Source: Alphaproteobacteria bacterium (GTDB lineage: Bacteria > Pseudomonadota > Alphaproteobacteria > TMED109). From it: a stretch of DNA of 64,000 nucleotides. The notes under the pieces are model-generated. The model searched no databases, had not been told where the DNA came from, and saw nothing but the letters and a program-made list of their open reading frames with translations. Positions 10,369 to 63,549 of the stretch are shown here, piece by piece. The first letter of the stretch is position 1. Each line of letters opens with the position of its first letter. The DNA lies in contig JAJDYI010000053.1 of NCBI GenBank assembly GCA_022825235.1, positions 1 through 64,000 on the forward strand, written 5' to 3'. Made by a program: the position numbers and the translations under genes.

Positions 10369-11454
10369 TCAAGCGGCGAGGCTGCGGACGGCGGCCTCGT
10401 CCCACTCGATCCCGGTCCCGGGCGCGGTCGTCACCTGCACTTGGCCGTCCCGCACCACCAGCGGCTCCGCCAGGAAGGGCGACGCCCATTCAACGTACTC
10501 GAGCCAGTGGGCGCCCGGCGTGACCCGCATGAGGTGAGACGACACTTCCGGAAACAGATGCGTTGAGACGGGGAGGTCAGCCTCATGGGCGATGGCCGCC
10601 GCGCGCATCCAGCCAGTCACGCCGCCGATGCGTTGCGCGTCCGGCATCACGAAATCTGCTGCGTCGGCGTCCGCCGCGGCCTGGAGGTCCGTGGGGCCGT
10701 AGAAGTTCTCACCGATCTGGATCGGGGTCGCGACGGTTTCACGGAGTTCGCGACAACCGTCGAGGTCCGCGTAGGGGATTGGCTCCTCGAACCAGACCAG
10801 GCCCAGGTCGTCGAGCACGGGCAGGCGCCGAAGCGCCTCGCGCCGCGAGAGGCCCTGGTTGAAGTCCGACATCAGCAGGCAGTCGTCGGGGATGGCATCG
10901 CGCACGGCTTCAAAGGCGGCCACGTCTCCGTTCACGTGGTCCCGGCCGAAGCGTATCTTCATCGCCCGGAAGCCGCCGTCGAGCAATTCCACCGCCTGGG
11001 CGGCGACCGCGTCAGGCGCCATCAGTCCGAGCCCGTTCGAGTTGTAGGCGCGCACCGGCCCCGGCGTTCCGCCGAGAAACGCGGCCAGCGGCAGGCCCGC
11101 GGCGCGCGCGCAGGCGTCCCAGGCGGCCATGTCGAAGCCCGAGATCGCCTGGAACGCGATGCCCTGCGGTCCGTACAGGTTGAGTTCGCGCACGAGGTCG
11201 TCGTAGAGGGTCGCCGGGGTGCACGGCCGCCCCTTGACCATGGCTTCGACCTCTTCCAGCACGGTCGCCAGCAGGCGTGCTCCGTTGGGCCGGTAGCCGA
11301 ACAGGTAGCTCCGCCCCGTAACCCCCTCTTCGGTGTGCAGGTCGATCAACAGGAACGGTGTCGTGGTGAACGTGCCGATCTTGGTGGCAAGGGGGCGGCG
11401 CAAGGGCACTTGGACGGCGCGCGTCGCGACGGAACGGATGGTGAGCGGGTGCAT
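10369..11454 (-). CDS. Mandelate racemase/muconate lactonizing enzyme family protein
   Basis: Enolase-superfamily enzyme that removes a proton alpha to a carboxylate; such proteins act as racemases or sugar-acid dehydratases. The 361-residue chain aligns with P. putida mandelate racemase at a constant offset of two. The metal ligands are Asp197, Glu223 and Glu249 (SDFNQ, WFEEP, QIGEN), the Asp272/His299 dyad lies in PDAQRIGGVTGW and STHLFPE, and Glu319 in HWLE. The first catalytic Lys (Lys166) is present, but the second Lys of the KxK motif is Arg168 (KIRF). The true substrate is therefore unknown. It follows an SDR gene, with a 47-base gap, in a sugar-acid-like catabolic cluster. Confidence 0.85.
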   Translation of the reverse strand: MHPLTIRSVATRAVQVPLRRPLATKIGTFTTTPFLLIDLHTEEGVTGRSYLFGYRPNGARLLATVLEEVEAMVKGRPCTPATLYDDLVRELNLYGPQGIAFQAISGFDMAAWDACARAAGLPLAAFLGGTPGPVRAYNSNGLGLMAPDAVAAQAVELLDGGFRAMKIRFGRDHVNGDVAAFEAVRDAIPDDCLLMSDFNQGLSRREALRRLPVLDDLGLVWFEEPIPYADLDGCRELRETVATPIQIGENFYGPTDLQAAADADAADFVMPDAQRIGGVTGWMRAAAIAHEADLPVSTHLFPEVSSHLMRVTPGAHWLEYVEWASPFLAEPLVVRDGQVQVTTAPGTGIEWDEAAVRSLAA

Positions 11455-11501: not shown

Positions 11502-12242
11502 TCAGTACGTGGTGCGCCCGCCCGAAAGATCGAAGGCCGCGGCCGTCGAGAAGGAGCACTCTTCCGACGAGAGCCACGCGATCAGGGCGGCGGCCTCTTC
11601 CGGGCGCCCCATGCGACCGAGCGGAATGCGTTCGACCATATACTTGACCTGCGCGTCCGTGACCTGACCCAGGATGGGGGTCTCGATCACCGCCGGGGTG
11701 ATGCAGTTCACGAGCACGCCGCTGCCGGCCACTTCCTTGCCCAGCGCCCGCGTGAAGGTGATCACGCCCGCCTTCGACGCACTGTAGTGGGCGGCGTTCG
11801 GATTGCCTTCCTTGCCCGCTACGGAGGCGATGTTGACGATCCGGCCATAGCCCGAGCCCTGCATGTGCGGCAGGACAGCCCGGCAGCAGAGGAACGTGCC
11901 CGTGAGATTGACCTCGATCACGCGCCGCCATTCGGCCGGATCCGCTTCTACGACCGGCGCGATGTCCCCGGCGATTCCGGCGCAGTTCACCAGGATGTCG
12001 ATGCGCCCGTGCCGTTCCGCCGCCGCCGCGGCTGCCGCCGCGACTGCCTCGTCATCGGCGACGCTGAGGGTGGTCGCACGCCCGCCGGTGGCGCTGGCGG
12101 TTTCCGCGAGGCCTTCGGCCGCCGCGTCCCAAAGTTCGAGGGCCGCTCCGTCCGCGCCGAGACGTGTTGCCGTCGCGCGGCCGATACCGCTGGCGGCCCC
12201 CGTCACGACGGCGACGCGGCCCTGGAGATCGATCTGGTTCAT
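11502..12242 (-). CDS. SDR family NAD(P)-dependent oxidoreductase
   Basis: Classical short-chain dehydrogenase of 246 residues: cofactor loop TGAASGIG near residue 14, NCAG at about 86, Asn112, Ser140 and the Tyr153/Lys157 pair in YSASK, and the C-terminal GGRTTY. The similarity is to FabG-like 3-oxoacyl reductases and sugar or polyol dehydrogenases; the substrate cannot be read from sequence. An AAGGAG box precedes the ATG at 12242 by six bases, which fixes the start. It lies between a HisD-family gene and the mandelate-racemase-like gene, so oxidation of a hydroxyl on a sugar-acid or related substrate is plausible. An alanine-rich stretch (residues 67-75) is unusual. Confidence 0.85.
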   Translation of the reverse strand: MNQIDLQGRVAVVTGAASGIGRATATRLGADGAALELWDAAAEGLAETASATGGRATTLSVADDEAVAAAAAAAAERHGRIDILVNCAGIAGDIAPVVEADPAEWRRVIEVNLTGTFLCCRAVLPHMQGSGYGRIVNIASVAGKEGNPNAAHYSASKAGVITFTRALGKEVAGSGVLVNCITPAVIETPILGQVTDAQVKYMVERIPLGRMGRPEEAAALIAWLSSEECSFSTAAAFDLSGGRTTY

Positions 12243-12513: not shown

Positions 12514-13827
12514 CTAGTCGGCGCCGGGAAGCGCCTCCAGTCCCCGGACGTTCATCCCGCCGTACCGACGCAGGCGGATATCCGCCTGTTCCTTGTGACC
12601 GGCGAAATGCTCGAGGGCGCAGAGGCGGGAGCAGTATTCCCCGACCGTGACCGACGCTTCCTCGGTGATCCGTTGGTAGGTGCAGGTCTTGATGAACTTC
12701 CCGACCCACAAGCCGCCGGTGTAGCGGGCCGCCCGGCGGGTCGGCAGCGTGTGGTTGGTGCCGATCACCTTGTCCCCGTACGACACGTTGGTCTCCGGGC
12801 CGAGGAAGAGCGCGCCGTAGTTCGTCAGGCGATCGAGGAAGTACTGGGGGTCCCGAGTCATCACCTGGACGTGTTCGGCGGCGAGGTCGTCCGCGACCGC
12901 GACCATTTCGTCCAATCCGTCGCACACGATCACCTGACCGTAGTCGCGCCACGCCTGCCCGGCCGTCTCGGCCGTGGCCAGGGTCCCGAGCTGCCGCTCG
13001 ATTTCGGCCAGCGTGTCGCGTGCGAGGGCTTCCGAATCGGTCAGCAGGATGGCCGGCGAAGTGGGGCCGTGTTCCGCCTGCCCGAGCAGGTCGGCCGCGC
13101 ACAATTCCCCGTCGACGGAATCGTCGGCGATGACCAGCGTCTCGGTGGGCCCGGCAAAGAGGTCGATGCCGACCCGGCCGAAAAGTTGCCGCTTGGCTTC
13201 GGCCACGAACATGTTTCCCGGCCCGACCAGCATGTCGACCGGCGCGATCGTTTCGGTGCCGAGCGCCATCGCGCCGACCGCCTGCACGCCACCGAGACAG
13301 TAGATCTCGTCGGCGCCGCCGAGATCCTGGGCCACGACGATGGCGGGATTCGGCTCGCCCTCGTAGGGTGGCGCGCACGTGATGATCCGCTGCACGCCGG
13401 CGACCTTGGCCGTCACCACGCTCATGTGCGCCGAGGCGACCATCGGATACTTGCCGCCGGGTACGTAGGATCCGACGCTGTTGATCGGGATGTTCTTGTG
13501 CCCAAGGACGACGCCCGGCATCGTCTCATGCTCCACGTCCTGGAGCGCGGCCCGCTGGATCGAGGCGAAGTTGCGGATCTGCGCCTGTGCGAACTCGATA
13601 TCGGCGCGTTCGCGCGAACTGACGCGGGCATAGCAGGCGTCGATTGCCGCCCGATCGAGACGGAACGTAGGCGGCGACCAGCGGTCGAAACGTTCGGAGT
13701 ACTCGCGGACCGCGGCGTCCCCGCGCGTTTCGATCTGGGCCAGAATGTCCTCGACGGTCCGACGTACCTTGGCGTCGGCGTCGGCCTTGGCGTCATCGCT
13801 GATCCCGGTCTTGAGATGGCGGGCCAT
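12514..13827 (-). CDS. HisD-family zinc-dependent alcohol dehydrogenase
   Basis: Member of the histidinol dehydrogenase family, 437 residues. The four zinc ligands are present (Gln250 and His253 in GQAEHG, Asp352 in SYGDKV, His411 in AGHKEQ), as is the catalytic pair Glu318-His319. The C-terminal region [13 protein letters not shown] differs from biosynthetic HisD, and no other his gene is nearby. Instead it is divergent from an SDR and adjoins an enolase-superfamily enzyme. HisD paralogues in such settings oxidise other alcohols, for example HpsN with dihydroxypropanesulfonate. I therefore call it a catabolic paralogue, though a true histidinol dehydrogenase cannot be excluded. The ATG at 13827 was chosen where homology begins. 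Confidence 0.8.
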
Positions 13828-13896: not shown

Positions 13897-14667
13897 ATGA
13901 GCGAGATGGACGGAACACAACAGGAACTGCCGGTCTGGGCCCGGGGCGTCGAAGGTCAGGTTGCCCTGGTCACGGGGGCCGGCCGGGGCCTGGGCCGGGC
14001 GTGCGCCCTGGCCCTGGCGGAGGCGGGCGCCGCCGTCGTGGCGGTGGCCCGGACGGAAGCCGACCTGCACAGCCTGGCCGCCGAGGCCCGTCGGCCGGTG
14101 GAGACCTGGGTCGAGGATGTGACGGGGGAGGCGCTGCTGCGCCGCATCGAGCGACTGGACCGCCTCGACGTGCTGGTCAACAACGCCGGCACGAACCGGC
14201 CGCAGCCGTTCCCGGAGGTCACCGACGCAGCACTTGACCAGCTGCTGGACCTCAACGTGCGGTCCGCCTTCCGGGTTGCCCGGAGTGCTGCGCGCGTGAT
14301 GCTCCGCCGAAAGTCCGGGTCGATCATCCACATGAGTTCCCAGATGGGGCACGTCGGCGCCGTCGAGCGAACCGTGTACTGCATGACCAAGCACGCGATC
14401 GAGGGTCTGAGCAAGGCGATGGCCGTGGAACTCGGACCGCAGGGAATTCGCGTCAACGCGGTGGCGCCGACGTTCATCGAGACGCCGATGACGCGCCCCT
14501 ATCTCGAGGATCCTGCCTTCGCCGAATTCGTCCGCAGCATGATCAAGATGGATCGGTTCGGGAGCGTGGATGACGTGGCGGCCGCCGTCCTCTACCTGGC
14601 CTCGCCGGCATCGGGCATCGTGACCGGCACCAGCCTCAGAGTCGACGGCGGCTGGACTGCGCACTGA
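13897..14667 (+). CDS. SDR family oxidoreductase
   Basis: Short-chain dehydrogenase of 256 residues with cofactor loop TGAGRGLG (about residues 26-33), NNAG near 96, Asn120, Ser148, and the Tyr161/Lys165 pair in YCMTK; the C terminus ends VDGGWTAH. It resembles gluconate 5-dehydrogenase or other 3-oxo reductases; the substrate is unknown. Translation most likely starts at the ATG at 13897 with GGGGGTCAGG just before it. It is divergent from the HisD-family gene across 69 bases, which must hold both promoters, and converges on the pdxA-like gene. Confidence 0.85.
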
Positions 14668-17458: not shown

Positions 17459-18142
17459 ATGATCGGCGACCCGCTCGCCCTTCGGATCCACACGCCGGTC
17501 GGCCGTGCAACGCCGGAGCAAGTGGCGGCAGTGGCCGACGCGCCGACCAGTTTCCTGGCCGACGCCCAGCAGGGCTGGAACTGCATGGATGCAGCGATCC
17601 GGCCGCTGGATCCGGACATGCGCTTCGTTGGTGTCGCCGTGACCGCCGCCGGCGGGCCGCGCGACAATCTTGCGGCGATAGCGGCCCTTGACCTTGTGGC
17701 GCCCGGCGACGTGCTGGTGCTGGCCACCGGGTGCGACCGGAGCGGTGCTGTCATCGGCGACCACTATGCTGCGGTCGCCAAACAGAAGGGCGTTGTCGGA
17801 ATTGTTACCGATGGAATGGTACGGGACGCGGCGGGTATCCGCGCCAAGGGTCCGCCCGTGTTTTCGTGCGGCCTCAGGCCAAACAGCGGCTACCGAAACG
17901 GCCCTGGAGAGTTGAACGGAACCGTCAGCGTGGGAGAGGTGGCGGTTCATCCAGGGGACATCGTGGTGGCTGACGAAGACGGCGTCGTGGTGGTCCCCCA
18001 CGTTCATGCCGAGCGGGTAATTGCTGCGCTGGCAGAAGTGCAGGCAAAGGAAGACGTGCTTGAGGGGAAGATTGCACGTGGGGAACTCACCACTCTGTGG
18101 GACCGCGCCCGCTACCTCGAGCGCGGCGTCGAAGAGCTCTAG
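17459..18142 (+). CDS. RraA-like protein / 4-hydroxy-4-methyl-2-oxoglutarate aldolase family
   Basis: RraA-fold protein of 227 residues. Family features visible are AVTAAGGPRDNLA, the GDHYAAVAKQKGVVGIVTDGMVRD segment with the conserved Gly-Asp and Arg-Asp that bind pyruvate and metal, and GEVAVHPGDIVVADEDGVVVVP. Homologues include HMG/CHA aldolases that split 4-hydroxy-2-oxo acids to pyruvate, and RraA, the RNase E regulator. With a dehydrogenase and an HpaI-type aldolase directly downstream, an aldolase role is likelier here. The start at 17459 is chosen at GDPLALR; an in-frame ATG at 17408 is possible. No strong ribosome-binding site is seen for either. Confidence 0.82.
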   Translation: MIGDPLALRIHTPVGRATPEQVAAVADAPTSFLADAQQGWNCMDAAIRPLDPDMRFVGVAVTAAGGPRDNLAAIAALDLVAPGDVLVLATGCDRSGAVIGDHYAAVAKQKGVVGIVTDGMVRDAAGIRAKGPPVFSCGLRPNSGYRNGPGELNGTVSVGEVAVHPGDIVVADEDGVVVVPHVHAERVIAALAEVQAKEDVLEGKIARGELTTLWDRARYLERGVEEL

Positions 18143-18153
18143 GGGACGCGAAC

Positions 18154-19134
18154 ATGGCGAATCAGCGCAAGGTAATGTTGGTGCAGGGCATGCCCGACGA
18201 GGGACGCGCCCTTCTCGAGGCTCGTGACGATGTACTGGTCGAGGATTGCTCCAACGACGAGGTCGATACGCTACTCGAGCGACTGGGCGACGTGGCGGCA
18301 GTGACTTTGCGCACGACGGTCTGCGATCGGGAATTCATCGCGGCGGCACCGAACCTCGAGGTGGTGTCGCGCTTCGGGGTCGGGTTCGATTCGGTGGACG
18401 TCGAGGCCCTGACCGAGCGGGGTATCCCGCTGCTGATCGCGGGGGAATCCAATTCGCGGTCGGTCGCCGAGCACGCTGTCTTCCTGATGATGGCGCTTGC
18501 CAAGCGCTCTCTTTATTTCCATGGCACGGTCCAAGGCCGTCGGTTCCAGGAGCGCTTCGGGACCGACCTGGAAAACGTCGAGCTATTCGGCAAGCGGCTG
18601 CTCGTCATCGGGTTCGGCCGAATCGGGACGCGCACGACGGCGATCTGCAAGGGACTGGGAATGGCGGTCGATGTCTTTGACCCCTACATCGAGAGTGCCG
18701 CCGTGGAGCAGGCAGGCGCCCGCCGCGTCGCGCACCTCGAGGAGGCCCTGCCGCTGGCGGATTTCGTCACCGTCCACTGTCCGCGCAATGCCGAGACCGA
18801 AGGCCTGATCGACGCGTCGGCGCTTGCCCGGATGAAATCGTCCGCGATTCTCGTCAACACCGCCCGGGGCGGCATCATCGAGGAGGCGGCGCTGGTCGAC
18901 GCGCTTCGCGCCGGCGGCATCCGGGCCGCCGGGCTCGATGTCTTCGATTCGGAGCCGCCGCCGGATGATCATCCTCTGCTCGATCTAGAGAACGTGCTGT
19001 TCTCGCCGCACGTGGCCGGCATCACGAGCGAATCCATGCGAGCCATGGCCGAGGTCACCTGCCAGAACGTGCTGGATGCGTTCGATGGCCGGATCAAGCC
19101 TGCGCATATCGTCAATCCCGAAGTTCTGGAGTAG
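18154..19134 (+). CDS. D-2-hydroxyacid dehydrogenase (SerA-like)
   Basis: NAD-dependent D-2-hydroxyacid dehydrogenase of 326 residues. The C-terminal catalytic half holds the cofactor loop VIGFGRIGTRT (about residues 152-162). The catalytic Arg lies in NTARGGIIEEAALVDAL, followed by Glu in FDSEPPP and His in FSPHVAGIT. No ACT domain follows, unlike many phosphoglycerate dehydrogenases. It is 11 bases after the RraA-like gene and 5 bases before the HpaI-type aldolase, so the three are one operon. Interconversion of a 2-oxo acid and 2-hydroxy acid is expected; the substrate is unknown. Confidence 0.87.
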   Translation: MANQRKVMLVQGMPDEGRALLEARDDVLVEDCSNDEVDTLLERLGDVAAVTLRTTVCDREFIAAAPNLEVVSRFGVGFDSVDVEALTERGIPLLIAGESNSRSVAEHAVFLMMALAKRSLYFHGTVQGRRFQERFGTDLENVELFGKRLLVIGFGRIGTRTTAICKGLGMAVDVFDPYIESAAVEQAGARRVAHLEEALPLADFVTVHCPRNAETEGLIDASALARMKSSAILVNTARGGIIEEAALVDALRAGGIRAAGLDVFDSEPPPDDHPLLDLENVLFSPHVAGITSESMRAMAEVTCQNVLDAFDGRIKPAHIVNPEVLE

Positions 19135-19139
19135 GAACC

Positions 19140-19910
19140 ATGCGCGAGAACGCCGTTCAGAAGATCTGGCAGGAGGGGGGCGCAGTCGTGAACGGCTGGC
19201 TGTCCATTCCGAACAGTTTCGCAGCCGAGGTCATGGGGGGGTGCGGATGGGATTCCGTGACCGTCGACCTCCAGCACGGGCTGAGTGACTTCTCCGACAC
19301 CGTCCAGATGCTGCAGGCCCTGTCGACCACCCCGGTGACGCCGCTCACCCGCGTTCCGACTCTGGAACCCGGCATCATCGGCAGGCTCCTGGACGCCGGC
19401 AGCTACGGGATCATCTGCCCGATGGTCAATACGCCCGAGCAGTGCGCGCAGCTGGTTTCCTACTGCAAGTACGCCCCCGAGGGAGTCCGAAGCTTCGGCC
19501 CGATCCGGGCGGCGATCTACGGGGGGCCCGACTATCTGGACAAGGCGAACGAGACCATCCTGGCGATTGCGATGGTGGAAACCGCGGAGGCGGTCGCCAA
19601 CGTGGATGCGATCGTTGCGACGCCGGGCCTCGACGGGATCTACGTGGGCCCGTCGGACCTCGCGCTGTCGCTCGGCGAAAGACCCCAGATGGATACCGAC
19701 AATCCAGTCGTCACCGAGGCCATGGCGACCATCCTGGCGGCGGCCCAGCGCGCCGGCGTGCCGACCGGGCTGCACTGCCTGGGCCCGGAGTACGCGCTGC
19801 AGAAGATCCGGGAAGGGTTCCAGTTCGTCTCGATCGCGAATGACACACGCATCCTGACCGCTGCCGCGCAGGACCAGATCGCCACCATCCGGCAGGGCCT
19901 CGCCGACTGA
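19140..19910 (+). CDS. HpcH/HpaI-family aldolase
   Basis: Class II (metal-dependent) 2-oxo-3-deoxy acid aldolase of 256 residues, releasing pyruvate. Landmarks are NGWLSIPNSFAAEVM, the DSVTVDLQHGLSDF segment with the conserved DxQHG, the metal-binding region around AMVETAEAVANV (Glu) and GIYVGPSDLALSLG (Asp), and LHCLGPEYALQKI. It resembles 4-hydroxy-2-oxoheptanedioate and 2-dehydro-3-deoxyglucarate aldolases. A GGAG-type box precedes the ATG. It is the last gene of the RraA/dehydrogenase/aldolase operon. Confidence 0.88.
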   Translation: MRENAVQKIWQEGGAVVNGWLSIPNSFAAEVMGGCGWDSVTVDLQHGLSDFSDTVQMLQALSTTPVTPLTRVPTLEPGIIGRLLDAGSYGIICPMVNTPEQCAQLVSYCKYAPEGVRSFGPIRAAIYGGPDYLDKANETILAIAMVETAEAVANVDAIVATPGLDGIYVGPSDLALSLGERPQMDTDNPVVTEAMATILAAAQRAGVPTGLHCLGPEYALQKIREGFQFVSIANDTRILTAAAQDQIATIRQGLAD

Positions 19911-61208: not shown

Positions 61209-61511
61209 ATGAACCTTTCACCGCGGGAGAAGGACAAGCTGCTCGTCGCGATGGCGGCCCTTGTGGCGCGCCGCCGGTTCGAGCGCGGCGTCCGGCTGAA
61301 CTATCCCGAGGCGGTCGCCCTGATCACCGACTACATCGTCGAGGGGGCGCGGGACGGGGCGTCGGTCGCCGATCTGATGCGCGACGGCACGAGCGTCCTG
61401 CGCCGCGATCAGGTCATGGAGGGGGTGGCCGACATGATCCCCGAGATCCAGGTCGAGGCCACGTTCCCCGACGGCACGAAGTTGGTCACGGTGCACCAGC
61501 CCATCCGCTGA
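61209..61511 (+). CDS. ureA: Urease gamma subunit
   Basis: Smallest structural subunit of urease, 100 residues, matching the family length exactly. [23 protein letters not shown] opens it, followed by [31 protein letters not shown] and [31 protein letters not shown]. An AGGAG box precedes the ATG. Subunits gamma, beta and alpha are separate here, as usual outside plants and Helicobacter. Confidence 0.97.
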
Positions 61512-61527
61512 ACCAGGGAGATTGCCG

Positions 61528-61839
61528 ATGATTCCCGGCGAGATCATTGCGGCGGCCGGAACGCTGCTCCTTAACGCGGAGGCCGAGGCCATCACGATCA
61601 CGGTGGCCAACACCGGCGACCGGCCCATCCAGGTCGGCTCGCACTACCACTTCTACGAGGTCAACACCGCCCTCGAATTCGACCGCGCGGCCGCCCGGGG
61701 CCGTCGCCTCGACATTCCCGCCGGGACCGCGATGCGCTTCGAGCCGGGCCAGCAGCGCGAGGCCAGACTGATTCCCTACGCCGGTGCCCGGGTGGTCCGG
61801 GGGTTCAATGCCCGGGTCCAGGGCCCGCTGGAGGACTGA
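61528..61839 (+). CDS. ureB: Urease beta subunit
   Basis: Second structural subunit of urease, 103 residues. [59 protein letters not shown] and [14 protein letters not shown] are characteristic. A TTG two codons upstream is in frame, but the GGGAG box eight bases before the ATG at 61528 favours that ATG. It stands 16 bases after ureA and three bases before ureC. Confidence 0.96.
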
Positions 61840-61842
61840 GCC

Positions 61843-63549
<1,707 letters not shown>

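Follow-up and report, generated by a model that had tools for sequence, protein, structure and literature searches.

Mandelate racemase (MR) of Pseudomonas putida is the textbook case of two-base proton transfer, with Lys166 as one of the two bases. Among its solved relatives, BRADO_4202 of Bradyrhizobium (3TOY/3TTE) was solved with mandelic acid; none of the papers listed by a literature search on it contains the EFI target numbers, and the string '3tte' appears once, in a protein-structure survey (PMC8120156). The 'enolase' 3UGV of alphaproteobacterium BAL199 (EFI target 501650) is a further solved relative, for which we found no function, none of the papers listed by our search naming 3UGV. 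The L-talarate/galactarate dehydratases 2PP0 and 2OG9/3CB3, also of the MR subgroup, dehydrate acid sugars. A general expansion of the MR family has been described in SAR202, and that paper raises both racemisation and beta-elimination (PMC6946804).

Here, we describe a gene in an alphaproteobacterial window (the whole 64,000-nucleotide stretch of DNA analysed) in which the KxK motif of MR, Lys164 and Lys166, reads KxR. The best explanation of our data is that its predicted product, P0001, is a working Mg-dependent enzyme of the MR lineage that belongs to a large KxR group. Our literature search found nothing on such a group, but the search was weak, as 'KxK motif' combined with 'enolase superfamily', a current term, also returned nothing. 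If most of the MR lineage has Arg at site 166, the KxR group is a natural test of arginine replacing a lysine base, and the signature residue of MR would be a later change.

The gene, its product and the spread of KxR

The gene and its motif are located as follows.

10369..11454, minus strand: MR-lineage enzyme with KxR motif, 361 aa; Pfam MR_MLE_N and MR_MLE_C above cut-off; 3ugv E 4e-112, MR E about 1e-80
10951..10959, minus strand: codons AAG ATA CGC for K166-I167-R168, with R168 at 10951-10953

The gene lies on the minus strand, which an earlier note on this DNA had not given; read on the plus strand, 10369-11454 contains an internal stop. Both domains of the MR subgroup of the enolase superfamily, N- and C-terminal, pass their Pfam cut-offs in P0001, whose nearest solved protein is 3ugv, followed by P. 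putida MR. The K166R mutant of MR, 1mdl, scores about one bit higher against P0001 than the wild type does. An AlphaFold2 model (mean pLDDT 95.7) places KIR at the end of strand 164-168 and superposes on 3ugv with a TM score of 0.97 and on MR with 0.96. Two more KxR genes occur in the source genome: a paralogue (L002, G000:C77:25516-26580) with 53% identity to the window gene and a distant one (L006, G000:C51:69094-69909) with 30%.

P0001 residues K166, R168, D197, N199, E223, E249, D272, H299 and E319 pair with MR K164, K166, D195, N197, E221, E247, D270, H297 and E317, so that the numbering is offset by two at every catalytic position. The Mg ligands and the His299-Asp272 dyad, by which we judged membership of the MR subgroup, are intact, and the assignment to the MR lineage made in the earlier note is upheld. 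MR's own S-face base, Lys166, by which we judged an MR enzyme proper, is replaced by Arg168 (codon CGC), as that note had also read from its alignment. The sequence establishes the fold family of P0001; it likewise shows that the metal ligands (D197/E223/E249), K166, E319 and the dyad of His299 and Asp272 are present and that Arg168 is invariant across the sampled group.

An alignment placing lysine at position 168 was looked for, and none was obtained: the column holds Arg in 107/107 rows, of which 80 come from named genomes and 25 from the window's family, the other two being the window gene and 3ugv. This leaves the claim standing and excludes chance or sequencing error as the source of Arg168. 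These rows comprise 103 distinct ones (three loci repeat genomes already in the set and L072 matches 3ugv) and include a distant paralogue (L057) and a locus with a stop within the translated stretch (L105). The named-genome search used an alignment of family members, and the best 80 of 519 relatives were taken; by their titles, these are mainly Alpha- and Betaproteobacteria and, in small numbers, Gammaproteobacteria and bins from other phyla.

Because the queries behind this set were themselves KxR, MR was also used as a query. In 385 genomes of the class it matched 52 places in 42 genomes; 45 of these places were read, giving 33 KxR and 12 KxK, and five of the remaining seven had already been read as KxR. 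In 398 genomes of the phylum it matched 16 places, 10 KxR and 6 KxK, five of which are also in the class set. The KxR arginine is encoded by CGN in 121 of the 142 codons read and by AGA or AGG in the other 21. KxR is the rule within a large unnamed group of bacterial MR relatives, and mandelate racemisation should not be assumed for KxR proteins annotated as mandelate racemase.

Lid residues, neighbouring genes and the predicted reaction

The lid of P0001 combines cationic R19 and K25 with hydrophobic L22, I26 and F29. In MR, the hydrophobic lid and pocket residues for the aryl group include Val22, Ala25, Val26 and Val29, according to PMC9835602. Site 25 is Ala in 93% of 15 KxK rows, whereas about 93% of the 27 rows in the clade that contains the window gene have Lys, Arg or His there. 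R19 and K25 argue against an aryl substrate. The genes nearby include the following.

11502..12242, minus strand: SDR1, short-chain dehydrogenase (Pfam adh_short and adh_short_C2), 47 bp upstream of the MR-lineage gene
12514..13827, minus strand: dehydrogenase of the HisD superfamily with a third type of motif, GKYPM (Pfam PF00815), 271 bp upstream of SDR1
13897..14667, plus strand: SDR2, divergent SDR, its start being one of four candidates
17459..18142, plus strand: RraA-like aldolase-family protein (Pfam PF03737)
18154..19134, plus strand: D-2-hydroxyacid dehydrogenase-like protein (Pfam PF02826, PF00389)
19140..19910, plus strand: HpcH/HpaI-type aldolase (Pfam PF03328; hydroxyketoacid aldolase 6r62, E 3e-61)

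The last three stand in a row on the plus strand (17459-19910) and probably form a small catabolic operon. Farther along, the called genes at 61209-63549 (plus strand) begin with residues resembling urease subunits and are putative urease genes. An orthologue of P0001 occurs in six of the seven genomes of the genus at 86-96% identity, G026 having only a paralogue. SDR1, the HisD-like gene and SDR2 adjoin the orthologue in 6/6 of these distinct genomes (L058 repeats L036), and the RraA/dehydrogenase/aldolase block is present in five of the six, the sixth contig ending before it.

We tentatively place dehydration first among the possible reactions of P0001, at somewhat less than even odds, and favour a charged (anionic) or polyhydroxy acid as the substrate. 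This preference rests on the neighbours and the cationic lid residues, not on the arginine. In addition, among outgroup enzymes whose reaction is known, the nearest are talarate/galactarate dehydratases and a cycloisomerase, which we count in favour of dehydration. Two features of the locus count against it: the HisD-like gene, 271 bp from SDR1, may be a separate unit, and the aldolase block lies about 8 kb away from the MR-lineage gene. The NCBIfam talarate/galactarate dehydratase model NF047820 gives P0001 220.1 bits, far below its cut-off of 500, which also counts against it.

The HisD-like protein is read as a predicted dehydrogenase of a primary alcohol, and would fit as a partner because HisD-type enzymes turn an alcohol into the carboxylate that an MR-lineage enzyme needs. 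It would supply a 2-hydroxy acid, whose carboxylate and 2-hydroxyl would bind Mg. His299 with Asp272 would then remove the alpha-proton to give a Mg-held enediolate, while Arg168 would keep the opposite face positively charged and may relay a proton there. Departure of the beta-hydroxyl would yield a 2-keto-3-deoxy acid, which the HpaI-type aldolase could cleave. With R19 and K25 making the lid cationic, the substrate would be expected to have a tail that is anionic or polyhydroxy and not a phenyl ring.

Alternatively, P0001 could racemise or epimerise a 2-hydroxy acid, with His299 serving the R face and Arg168 acting as S-face base or acid in the manner of MR Lys166. We regard this as possible, though doubtful. 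Arginine is in general a weak base, and the K166R mutant of MR is said to be much slower than the wild type. Nevertheless, by its PDB title (1mdl) this mutant was co-crystallised with (R)-mandelate, and PMC9835602 reports its use in isotope-effect experiments, so that arginine at this site does not rule out racemisation. The earlier note had held two-base racemisation doubtful and dehydration likelier; we retain its preference for dehydration, on the neighbourhood and lid residues, while the loss of the lysine proves insufficient by itself.

Two relatives in or next to the window's 27-row clade, from distantly related bacteria, bear on the same question. In Acetobacter nitrogenifigens (L123, 9986-13570) and Bradyrhizobium dw_78 (L127, 9974-14648), the KxR gene is followed by genes for an aldehyde dehydrogenase (called in L123 only as a 117-aa fragment), a benzoylformate decarboxylase (664.9 and 649.7 bits, respectively; cut-off 493) and a 144-aa protein. 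These operons fit a mandelate-like route and speak for a racemase, but the same three enzymes fit equally well as a chain of dehydratase, keto-acid decarboxylase and aldehyde dehydrogenase. Moreover, whole-genome searches matched FMN-dependent hydroxyacid dehydrogenases in both genomes, but none within the fetched stretches, and the window combines a cationic lid with the lack of a benzoylformate decarboxylase.

Benzoylformate decarboxylase was also considered as a general partner of KxR genes and rejected. It exceeds the cut-off in 5/385 class genomes; by-eye comparison of the class genomes found it together with an MR-lineage gene in G385 alone, about 340 kb apart; in that genome a TPP enzyme matched below the cut-off at a distance of about 20 kb from the MR-lineage gene. 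Conserved neighbours in general gave no clue to a single substrate. Genes were called and clustered in the window and 106 loci (the MR-lineage gene was uncalled in nine loci; search coordinates were used for eight and L056 was dropped), and the most widespread neighbour cluster occurred in no more than 12 loci. An operon scan of the 99 loci outside the genus found 53 without a close same-strand neighbour and 101 neighbour genes in the others, and a Pfam tally of 53 of these 101 genes found no family in more than two members. In the family's other genera (L043-L055), the gene immediately upstream of the KxR gene is of HAD type at 12 of 13 loci; this HAD-type gene was not used as a clue because the window lacks it. 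In some of these loci the HAD-type gene is preceded by molybdenum-hydroxylase maturation genes.

Direction of the exchange between lysine and arginine

Two rooted trees were built, one of 53 rows and one of 71 rows with columns 164-166 omitted. Distant, short or broken rows (L004-L008, L102 and L105) were removed, as were L057 (second tree only) and rows more than 68% (first tree) or 72% (second tree) identical to a retained row. The two trees agree. All outgroup rows are KxK: the talarate/galactarate dehydratase 2og9, the cycloisomerase 5xd7, 2ovl and L003, with 2pp0 in the second tree only. KxR rows occupy a basal set (L176-L178), the window's 27-row clade (100/94) and positions around MR, and a KxK clade made up of MR and 13 relatives (96/94) is nested inside KxR. 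L167, an additional KxK row, may or may not represent a second return to lysine, as support is weak at the forks where the MR clade meets adjacent rows (58/29 to 95/66).

At a probability of roughly 0.75, KxR is the older state inside the lineage and Lys166 of MR most likely a later return. Textbook MR thus seems to have evolved from inside the KxR group, and the change probably took place in MR and not in the window gene. The earlier note had described the motif as KxK changed to KxR; the arginine at the site is confirmed, whereas a departure from an MR-like ancestor is at odds with trees in which KxR is older and the KxK clade of MR lies inside it. The residues at MR sites 138 and 321 lend the proposed direction partial support: Asn and Trp are found almost throughout both KxR sets, while in KxK rows site 138 is mostly Asp and site 321 is variable.

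An unlikely alternative to KxR as the older state is that Lys changed to Arg many times independently and that MR never lost its lysine. A change from AAG to AGG takes a single base, 21 of the 142 KxR codons are AGA or AGG, and the forks near MR are weak. Moreover, Asn138 and Trp321, found in KxR rows as well as in 2pp0 and 2og9, are by eye absent from 2ovl and 5xd7. However, eight gains are needed if lysine is barred from returning, against a minimum of three changes, and the large majority of KxR codons are CGN. In addition, an AU test rejects KxR as a single clade (p=0.004), in a comparison whose group was picked after the tree was seen and whose tree included the long-branched L057 and the trait columns.

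It is more speculative, and to us rather improbable, that arginine acts naturally as an S-face residue for proton transfer in one large branch of the enolase superfamily, and that MR, on taking up aryl substrates, regained Lys166 from an Arg ancestor and with it acquired Asp138 and a neutral lid. If so, the classic K166R mutant would stand near the ancestral state at site 166.

The HisD-like neighbour and comparison with known systems

The HisD-like neighbour scores 376.7 bits against the 2,3-dihydroxypropanesulfonate (DHPS) dehydrogenase 8v35 and 286.4 against HisD 4g07; TIGR00069, scanned inside a longer frame, gives 454.3 bits (cut-off 243.8). According to PMC11382572, HpsN carries the motif GRY[A/S]H with a sulfonate-binding His, and HisD carries GSAPL. 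The neighbour has GKYPM, which matches neither, and retains the HisD-type catalytic Glu, His and Asp named in that paper. The motif was readable in 30 of 34 HisD-like loci, where it is G[KR][YF]P[ML] and His is never the last residue. Relatives with this third motif (L191-L224) are common in Alphaproteobacteria and on plasmids, where they are annotated hisD; in four of 257 plasmid records examined, the genes around them encode LacI or other regulators, SDRs, sugar transporters and, in one case, an aldolase.

The HpsN-like neighbour had prompted a DHPS/sulfolactate pathway as our main reading, in which P0001 would act on sulfolactate from an HpsN-type enzyme; it was dropped when the HpsN motif proved absent. 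The best scores of the neighbour do fall on DHPS dehydrogenases and a cationic lid would suit a sulfonate, but GKYPM and the missing final His in the 30 relatives read make this pathway very improbable. No Xsc above cut-off was found in the source genome, which also counts against it, and a literature search linking mandelate racemase with sulfolactate, as weak as that for the KxR group, found nothing. That P0001 is a decayed or inactive protein is scarcely credible: its one supporting point is a motif different from that of MR, while the frame is open, five orthologues in the genus are 86-96% identical, every metal and acid/base position is kept and the Arg is fixed in the sampled group.

Compared with known systems, P0001 is closest to 3UGV, with which it shares KxR, the same catalytic set, 49% identity and the fold (TM 0.97); they differ at site 52, where 3UGV has Glu and the window protein Phe, and the title of 3UGV gives Mg only. 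P. putida MR is 38% identical (TM 0.96) and has the same metal ligands, His-Asp dyad, K164 and E317, but carries Lys166, Asp138, Ala19 and Ala25 where P0001 has Arg, Asn, Arg and Lys. BRADO_4202 (39% identity) also belongs to the MR lineage but is KxK with Asp at 138, and the talarate/galactarate dehydratases 2PP0 and 2OG9/3CB3 (28-31% identity) likewise differ in being KxK. The MR mutant K166R (1MDL) shares with P0001 an arginine at the equivalent place; there it is a laboratory mutation in an MR background, whereas in P0001 it is native and accompanied by Asn138 and by Trp at MR site 321.
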